From Tsuneonella amylolytica (GTDB lineage: Bacteria > Pseudomonadota > Alphaproteobacteria > Sphingomonadales > Sphingomonadaceae), in assembly GCF_003626915.1 (NCBI RefSeq), contig NZ_CP032570.1:2479001-2543000 (forward strand): 64,000 nucleotides of DNA, in the 5' to 3' direction. Positions 15,253-20,677 of the stretch are shown one piece after another. Every line of letters begins with the position of its first letter. Within the stretch, counting starts at the first letter, position 1. The notes under the pieces were generated by a model. It saw only the letters and a program-made list of their open reading frames with translations, was not told the origin of the DNA and made no database searches. The position numbers and the translations under genes are program-made.

Positions 15253-15408
15253 GAATTGGCTCGTTTCCTAGCCGCGCGTCGGCGGTTGCGACAGCCGCGA
15301 AATCGCCGGTCCCAATGGTTCGGAAAATTTCCCAACCTTGAGCGAAGCATTCATCGCACGTTTATCGTTGCGTATGTGGAAACCGCGGAAATCCGCCATT
15401 CTCGCGAA

Positions 15409-15424
15409 TTGGCACGGTGCTTGC
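15409..15424 (+). promoter_or_regulatory. Sigma-54 (RpoN) promoter
   Basis: TTGGCACGGTGCTTGC matches the -24/-12 consensus TGGCAC-N5-TTGC exactly, with GG and GC 12 nt apart. Transcription would start near 15435, giving a leader of about 48 nt to the micropeptide ATG at 15483. An AT-richer stretch upstream (about 15320-15375) is where an enhancer-binding activator would be expected. Phage-shock operons are classically sigma-54 dependent, which fits the downstream pspC. Confidence 0.8.
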
Positions 15425-15482
15425 GAAGTTTGTTGCATCGGAAGGATGGTCCTCCCGACACCGATTGAACAAGGAAATTACC

Positions 15483-15605
15483 ATGTCTCTTCACAACAAG
15501 CTCGCCGCCGGTTTCGCTTCGGTCGCCTTCAGCGTCTTCATGCTCGCCTTCGCCATCGCGCCGGTGATGCAGAGCTCGGCGATCGTCGCGGGAAACCTGG
15601 CATGA
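15483..15605 (+). CDS. 40-residue membrane micropeptide upstream of pspC
   Basis: The peptide begins MSLHNKLAAGFASV and carries one hydrophobic helix (about residues 9-36) ending near AIVAGNLA. It could be a single-pass inner-membrane protein or be cleaved as a signal peptide. AAGGAAATTACC precedes the ATG. It overlaps pspC by 4 nt (ATGA) and lies directly behind the sigma-54 promoter, so it is probably a phage-shock component. It is not clearly PspB, which is longer and has a coiled coil. I do not recognise a family. Confidence 0.65.
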   Translation: MSLHNKLAAGFASVAFSVFMLAFAIAPVMQSSAIVAGNLA

Positions 15606-15820
15606 GCAATCTCGACCGCCAGCGCCCTGCCGTTGCACCGTCACGGCAGGGCTTCCGCCTCGACAAGGGCAACGGCAAGGTCTTCGGCGTCTGCGCCGGA
15701 ATCGGCGACTATTTCGGCATAGAGCCGATGTGGGTCCGCATCGGCTTCGCCGCCGGTACGATCCTCGGTTTCGGGACCTTCGCCCTGGTCTACCTGGCGA
15801 TCGCGCTGATCGCCGACTGA
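15602..15820 (+). CDS. pspC: PspC domain protein
   Basis: This 72-residue protein is a minimal PspC domain: GFRLDKGNGKVFGVCAGIGDY, then FGIEPMWVRIGFA and one long hydrophobic segment GTILGFGTFALVYLAIALIAD. PspC is an inner-membrane sensor of envelope stress that in enterobacteria binds PspA with PspB. The C-terminal cytoplasmic leucine-zipper part of E. coli PspC is missing. It is coupled to a micropeptide gene and driven by a sigma-54 promoter; pspA and pspF are not in this window. Confidence 0.88.
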   Translation: MSNLDRQRPAVAPSRQGFRLDKGNGKVFGVCAGIGDYFGIEPMWVRIGFAAGTILGFGTFALVYLAIALIAD

Positions 15821-15850
15821 GGGAGCCCTTCCGGGGGCTCCCTCCACATT
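15821..15850. terminator. Hairpin between convergent pspC and SDR genes
   Basis: A perfect 8-bp stem, GGGAGCCC / GGGCTCCC with a six-base loop, begins right after the pspC stop. The tail CTCCACATTTC is only weakly T-rich on the plus strand, so termination efficiency is uncertain. It is probably shared by both converging transcripts. Confidence 0.6.
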
Positions 15851-20312: not shown

Positions 20313-20555
20313 CTAAGTCGCGACGATGTCTGCCTCGCGTCTTTCCTTCTCGTAGCGCAGGCAGTCGAAAATCTTGGCCCCGGCCAGGAACACCGATCCT
20401 GTCGCCGTGAGGAACAGTATCTTGCCGCCGAAGCCCGGGAATTGGTCGAGGTAATGCATGCCGCGCTCGCATGCGCCCAGCGCCAGCGCGAAGATCACGA
20501 GGCACGCCTCGAACCGGGTCTTGATGACGAACAGGCGGCCTAGTTTCTTGAGCAT
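20313..20555 (-). CDS. Small inner-membrane protein of unknown function
   Basis: This 80-residue protein has two hydrophobic segments (VIKTRFEACLVIFALALGA and KILFLTATGSVFLAGAKIFD) separated by a short polar loop (CERGMHYLDQFPGFGG) and a charged C-terminal tail. I recognise no family, but the even codon use and clean start suggest a real gene. Two TTAA half-sites (GTTAAGG and GTTAACC) lie in the 80 nt upstream; they do not form a full TTAA-N7-TTAA CtrA box. Confidence 0.7.
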   Translation of the reverse strand: MLKKLGRLFVIKTRFEACLVIFALALGACERGMHYLDQFPGFGGKILFLTATGSVFLAGAKIFDCLRYEKERREADIVAT

Positions 20556-20677
20556 GAGTCCCGGCAGATTTCCTTAACGAGGCGAGGAGCAAAACCCGTG
20601 CCATCGGCGGGTTCGCGCGCCTCGCGACGGTTAACGCATCCGGGAGTGTAAACGAGGCCGACGATGTGTCGAGCGCG

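Follow-up and report, generated by a model that had tools for sequence, protein, structure and literature searches.

A one-helix micropeptide and a short PspC behind a sigma-54 element: a probable second unit of the PspF regulon in Tsuneonella amylolytica

In the phage shock response of Escherichia coli and Yersinia, stress at the inner membrane leads PspA to release the activator PspF. The response in E. coli includes pspG, a separate transcript under PspF and sigma-54, whose product, a small inner-membrane protein, is described as an effector (PMC2763126, PMC9239133). In Yersinia, the C-terminal domain of PspC is reported to bind PspA, and PspB together with PspC is reported to be enough against secretins (PMC5596341). 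Furthermore, pspC occurs in neighbourhoods that are free of pspA, where its described partners include Toastrack, LiaI-LiaF-TM and HAAS (PMC11237479). The E. coli protein YohP, compared here by its description, is a small membrane protein with one helix and a link to the psp response, but it is not presented as a PspF target in the available portion of that account (PMC12719787).

The locus considered here lies in a 64,000-nucleotide stretch of the Tsuneonella amylolytica genome (the window; positions 2479001-2543000 of a single-contig genome of 2.79 Mb), and comprises a sigma-54 element, a micropeptide gene and a gene for a short PspC, which we call PspC2 (Table 1). Like pspG, it would form a second PspF- and sigma-54-dependent transcript apart from pspA. 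It differs from pspG in that loci of the present kind combine tandem peptide copies with a PspC paralogue; moreover, PspG has two predicted helices in the available accounts, whereas the peptide has one and does not match the PspG family. The pspA-free neighbourhoods likewise contain a PspC without an adjoining PspA, but a micropeptide leader is not among the partners named in the accessible part of that survey (PMC11237479), and YohP resembles the peptide in its size and single helix.

Table 1. Features of the peptide-pspC2 locus, in window coordinates
Feature	Position	Strand	Remarks
Candidate PspF enhancer (UAS)	15311-15343	+	two half-palindromes of the CCAA...GG type, 20 bp apart; putative role for PspF
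Sigma-54 -24/-12 element TTGGCACGGTGCTTGC	15409-15424	+	exact consensus match
40-aa micropeptide ORF	15483-15605	+	preceded by AACAAGG; predicted one-helix membrane peptide, N-in/C-out, with hydrophobic C-terminus and Ala as last residue
ATGA stop-start overlap of peptide and PspC2	15602-15605	+	predicted translational coupling
72-aa PspC ORF (PspC2)	15602-15820	+	PspC domain only, without the C-terminal region
Strong hairpin directly 3' of the PspC2 gene	15819-15844	+	possible transcript end; no T-run

PspC occurs twice in the genome, and the other copy belongs to a complete pspA-pspB-pspC operon with pspF in divergent orientation (L003), whose PspB scores 86.1 bits against the PspB profile. 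A PspF-like activator, which the earlier note on this DNA had proposed to look for elsewhere, is therefore present, and the absence of pspA and pspB described there is true of the operon and not of the genome. This main operon has the same promoter type, the same upstream element and a one-helix first peptide, and the present locus differs from it in having neither pspA nor pspB and in encoding a PspC without its C-terminal half. The suggestion of a distinct envelope-stress module is consequently right only at the local level, and an independent module is ruled out by the full pspF//pspABC operon with its promoter of the same type. Apart from the psp operon, the genome also encodes a second PspA/IM30 homologue (genome positions 1581102-1581761; L004, L246; 139.5 bits). 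Downstream of pspC, the main operon encodes more small proteins, which have a single hydrophobic stretch and show recurring blocks of the ERI.TD kind (L003:4690-5911, minus strand).

From the letters alone, the locus had first been read as an exact sigma-54 promoter lying 60 nt before a 40-residue membrane peptide that is joined by ATGA to a PspC. The element is borne out at its place (TTGGCACGGTGCTTGC), as are both reading frames and their overlap, and the spacing is corrected to 58 nt when counted from the GC of the -12 element to the ATG of the peptide. The pattern TTGGCACG-N4-TTGC has two copies in the 2.79-Mb genome, one before the peptide-pspC2 genes and one before the main psp operon, and the reversed control pattern has none. 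When TGGCACG-N4-TTGC is allowed up to two mismatches, the window holds 27 matches against 29 expected, a result of no significance. Consensus scans of the locus for a terminator and for a sigma-70 promoter found none, and the hairpin downstream of pspC2 has a predicted stability of -23.1 kcal/mol (z -4.4) that was equalled by none of 200 shuffles. A plasmid origin of the locus was rejected, as positions 15380-15820 have no match in the plasmid collection. Elsewhere in the window, a second TGGCACG-N4-TTGC site, preceded by an A, is found at 20589-20603 on the minus strand, 33 nt ahead of the ATG of an 80-aa frame (20313-20555, minus strand) that has the appearance of a membrane-bound protein and no Pfam match.

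PspC2 matches the PspC domain family (Pfam PF04024, 57.2 bits against a cut-off of 25) and stays below the cut-off of the full-length PspC model TIGR02978 (51.5 bits against 104), with a match that covers only profile positions 7-59 of 121. The other PspC of the genome passes the latter model at 133.1 bits. These profile scores agree with the earlier reading of a PspC shortened to its core, in which the PspC domain is kept and the C-terminal half is missing. The structure model of PspC2 is weak (pLDDT 67). As PspC2 is without the region corresponding to the PspA-binding C-terminus, it would be expected to have a role in the membrane that is free of feedback on PspF.

Relatives were drawn from 149 genomes of the family, which, judging from the named hosts, probably corresponds to the Sphingomonadaceae of GTDB; in the scan of the genome collection these include Tsuneonella, Pelagerythrobacter, Erythrobacter, Porphyrobacter, Altererythrobacter, Croceibacterium, Novosphingobium and Sphingomonas. 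The 72-residue PspC is matched in 139 of the 149 genomes, and at least two PspC matches are present in 102 (counted by hand). Seventy loci, the best-matching one from each of as many genomes, comprise 61 with a short PspC (<95 aa) and 9 with a long one (125-132 aa). All 61 short-PspC loci have a sigma-54-like site (9-12 of 12 positions) followed by one (38 loci), two (20 loci) or three (3 loci) peptides. The ATG of the first peptide stands 69-81 nt from the first T of the site in 60 of these loci and at 38 nt in the remaining one, where the start chosen makes the frame too long. A 4-nt overlap between the last peptide and pspC is present in 54. In a second set of named loci (L134-L166), which shares some identical genomes with the first, a peptide precedes 29 of 33 short PspCs. 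The exceptions are three Novosphingobium loci (L161, L162, L164) and one MAG (L165), in which the site lies 64-73 nt ahead of pspC itself and recF adjoins. The recF gene adjoins 91 of the 103 loci tested, or 91 of the 94 with a short PspC, and the 12 loci without it consist of the 9 long-PspC loci and three short-PspC loci. The search in relatives that the earlier note had proposed thus recovered the peptide upstream of pspC in both sets, and the want of conservation that it had held to count against its reading was not encountered.

Conservation of this kind bears directly on whether the 40-aa ORF is a chance frame upstream of pspC, which is almost certainly not the case. The frame is short and belongs to no database family, and comparison of the own peptide with two same-genus relatives is little informative (pN/pS 0.69 and 0.63, with pS >0.5 and near saturation). 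However, a similar peptide with the same helix and C-terminal residues is found at the same place in all 61 loci, and seven relative pairs, picked on the likeness of pspC2 and not of the peptide, give a pooled pN/pS of 0.40 for the peptide, compared with 0.24 for pspC2. Together, the conservation and the pooled ratio for the peptide rule out a chance ORF. A lower pN/pS of 0.16 for the peptide in 29 pairs is biased, because these were selected for similar peptides and the own peptide is in none of them.

The own peptide has no match in Pfam or NCBIfam, the PspG and PspB profiles included, and its structure model contains a helix from residue 3 to 25 (pLDDT 80); the structure models as a whole yielded only helices. 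The 61 short-PspC loci contain 87 one-helix peptides, and the aligned consensus of 40 peptides is MxxxxxxxxRxxAAxxSxAxSAxxxAxAIxPAxxxxxxxGxxA. Lysine and arginine account for 95 of 968 residues on the N-terminal side of the helix versus 1 of 1151 on the C-terminal side, which by the positive-inside rule predicts that the N-terminus faces inward and the C-terminus outward. The C-terminal residue is Ala, Val or Ile in 87 of 87 peptides. Twenty-six upstream copies that do not overlap pspC end likewise, in Ala (21) or Val (5), using the codons GCC, GCT and GTC, and the C-terminus is therefore not a by-product of the ATGA overlap.

The lengths of these peptides (27-48 aa), their single hydrophobic helix and their tandem copies also invite comparison with depolarising, growth-arresting small membrane proteins of the YohP or type I toxin kind, with PspC2 as the guard. 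E. coli YohP is described as lowering the membrane potential and raising PspA and PspC (PMC12719787). Nevertheless, we consider a toxin-like peptide quite improbable: at E 0.01, Pfam and NCBIfam assign none of 40 related peptides to a toxin family, their sole match (PhrC_PhrF, E 0.0054) being at chance level, and the peptides have good ribosome sites and are coupled to a gene of protective type. Among the literature matches listed, a scope that leaves most of the subscription literature outside, there is no description of the micropeptide. The peptides make up a family that neither Pfam nor NCBIfam contains, of a sort that gene callers could miss.

Evidence on the control of the locus comes from the two half-palindromes of the upstream element, which stand at -97 and -77 when counted from the first T of the -24 element. 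When the pspC2 and pspA promoter sets are aligned on the site, both have CC at -97/-96 and -77/-76, A at -94, and G at -87 and -67, and most main pspA operons of relatives carry the bases of the present locus at these offsets. For a matrix made from 21 pspA operons, the best match lies at an offset of 0 to +2 in 46 of the 61 regions upstream of pspC2 and elsewhere in up to 15, and the reverse test, from pspC2 to pspA, places 15 of 21 within 2 bases. Scores above the 99th percentile of shuffled best scores are reached by only 14 of the 61 pspC2 regions and 10 of the 21 pspA regions. At the own pspC2 locus, a matrix built from the pspA operons of other genomes, with the own genome excluded, scores 13.0 at the expected place, and the next best score is 0.9. 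In the own pspA operon the element stands 11 bp (one helical turn) nearer to the site and scores 22.4, with the next best again at 0.9. Twelve other sigma-54-like genomic sites, used as controls, have scores between -16 and -40 at the expected place, although one of them (L209) reaches 9.0 eleven bases off. At the exact offset, some true loci do no better than these controls, with minima of -24 and -21.

PspF (E <=1e-80) is present in 139 of the 149 family genomes; the ten genomes without PspF and the ten without PspC overlap in nine, and all 61 genomes with an examined short-PspC locus have PspF. The own genome has one rpoN, and its five strong matches to sigma-54 activators include PspF. It could thus be argued that another activator, such as NtrC, drives the promoter and that the unit lies outside the Psp response, the more so as a family-wide search pattern also caught three promoters of glnK-amtB-like type. 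This is very improbable, given the pspA-type upstream element at the expected place and the co-occurrence with PspF across genomes. The sigma-54 control proposed earlier is supported at the level of sequence by the exact site and by the sites in all 61 loci of relatives, and PspF may bind the upstream element. Since both psp promoters carry the same two-part element, the peptide-pspC2 genes probably belong to the PspF regulon as a second unit and do not form a separate system.

The search pattern combined the element and the site (25 positions, at most 3 mismatches), was derived from the same kind of loci, and matches 90 of the 149 genomes, against one match for the reversed control; it misses the own pspA promoter because of the shift of the element there. 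Twenty-seven pattern loci away from known psp places were inspected, of which 9 have a peptide and a short PspC, 2 a peptide and a pspA-type gene, 5 peptides only, and 3 a peptide at a locus cut by a contig end. Three more are the glnK-amtB-like promoters, caught at 2-3 mismatches and recognised by eye, and 5 are unclear, so that the pattern is not purely one of PspF. With L183, L184 and L185, the five make eight peptide-only loci in six genomes, each encoding at most four peptides, 27-45 residues long, and the PspC model found nothing in the stretches fetched around them. The peptide model matches L183-L185 clearly (E <=1e-8), L216, L218 and L219 weakly (0.002-0.008), and L217 and L237 not at all at 0.01; L216-L219 and L237 are thus alike in design more than in sequence.

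The main pspA operons follow the same plan. In all 21 examined (the own one and 20 from selected relatives), a sigma-54-like site is followed by a one-helix peptide before pspA, and the last residue of this peptide is Ala in the 20 relatives and Ser in the own genome. The pspC-leader and pspA-leader profiles do not match each other in hhalign (probability 1.8%), and the pspC-leader model matches leaders of pspA-type genes in five genomes (G074, G077, G145, G044, G076; E 1e-4 to 8e-3), so the two kinds of leader may have a common origin. In 15 of the 21 operons the leader ends in a GTGA or ATGA that also contains a start codon in the pspA frame, which would give PspA an N-terminal extension of 45-87 residues. 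Such an extension is seen at L003:6610-7578 (minus strand), where PspA is seemingly lengthened from the overlap with the leader. Similar apparent extensions occur at L079-L084, L086-L091, L096 and L097, and a block like SRIDxEIERLRRSPTPTQ is present in most of the whole set.

This arrangement raises the alternative that the peptide is chiefly a regulatory leader, whose translation or membrane insertion sets the output of the downstream Psp genes or carries the ribosome to the membrane. The peptide is the first gene after the site, its stop commonly overlaps pspC, and the overlaps with N-extended pspA frames in the main operons are of the same sort. Additional support comes from the sister family of the order, where PspF is present in 29 of 29 genomes and a sigma-54-like site precedes pspA in all 20 loci examined. 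There, 13 of the 20 (L248-L251, L254, L255, L257, L258, L260, L262, L263, L265, L267) have another kind of leader frame at the same place before pspA, of 52-56 aa and not a membrane helix, which starts at +84 to +110 after the site with a ribosome-like site and often has basic C-terminal residues. One such frame has no Pfam match above the cut-off. A 37-aa frame is found in two of the 20, and in four some frame exceeds the hydropathy limit, at +159 to +185 with a GTG or TTG start. A small first frame before pspA may therefore be older than the family, with the one-helix form as the family's own variant, and the sister-family frames favour a leader role and lower the case for an effector. Even so, a chiefly regulatory leader is rather unlikely in view of the eight peptide-only loci, the tandem copies, as many as four in a row and each with a ribosome site of its own, and the end residues that are conserved in the 26 copies without pspC overlap as well.

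Beyond the family, the peptide model has weak matches in 11 of 380 genomes of a class sample (E 0.002-0.009), nine of which fall inside frames of >100 aa, and three matches in an order sample (E 4e-4 to 5e-3), one of them (L191) in a 71-aa frame before which no sigma-54-like site was found. Absence by this model alone is weak evidence, since the model misses the real members G042 and G122.

On balance, we consider it somewhat probable that the peptides are inner-membrane effectors induced by PspF, beside a PspC that has no PspA-binding tail. The effector reading draws on the peptide-only loci and on the tandem copies with their own ribosome sites. Membrane stress would free PspF from PspA, and PspF at the candidate enhancer would drive the sigma-54 polymerase at the -24/-12 element. 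From the resulting short message, the peptide would enter the inner membrane with its N-terminus in and its C-terminus out, and PspC2 would be translated by coupling at the ATGA. PspC2, which keeps the membrane core of PspC, would then act in the membrane with no feedback on PspF. The peptide would serve as a membrane effector beside PspC2, and in some relatives without it, and not just as a leader, either as a partner of PspC2 or by changing the packing or leakiness of the bilayer.

A broader proposal, about which we are slightly more doubtful than confident, is that the phage-shock regulon of the Sphingomonadaceae gained one-helix micropeptides as new induced inner-membrane effectors at the head of its PspF-dependent transcripts, with a hydrophobic-Ala/Val C-terminal end that may be read on the periplasmic side of the membrane by a protease or a partner. 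The transcripts in question are the pspA operon, the short-pspC operon that usually lies beside recF, and the peptide-only arrays. One family offers a natural series, from PspC2 without peptides through PspC2 with one to four of them to peptides without PspC2, seemingly controlled by a single activator and with the PspA-binding part of PspC missing, so that the effector roles of PspC and of the peptides could be separated by simple deletions. The same design of switch and peptide also heads the main phage shock genes in relatives, and would amount to an apparently undescribed peptide arm of the response.

Two further arrangements emerged from the combined pattern. At L228 and L229, both of one genus, the pattern stands with 2 mismatches before a secreted-looking protein of 84-85 aa and a 47-aa one-helix peptide. 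At L238 it stands with 3 mismatches before a 171-aa protein, the N-terminal part of which is peptide-like (E 0.0035) and is followed by a longer domain.
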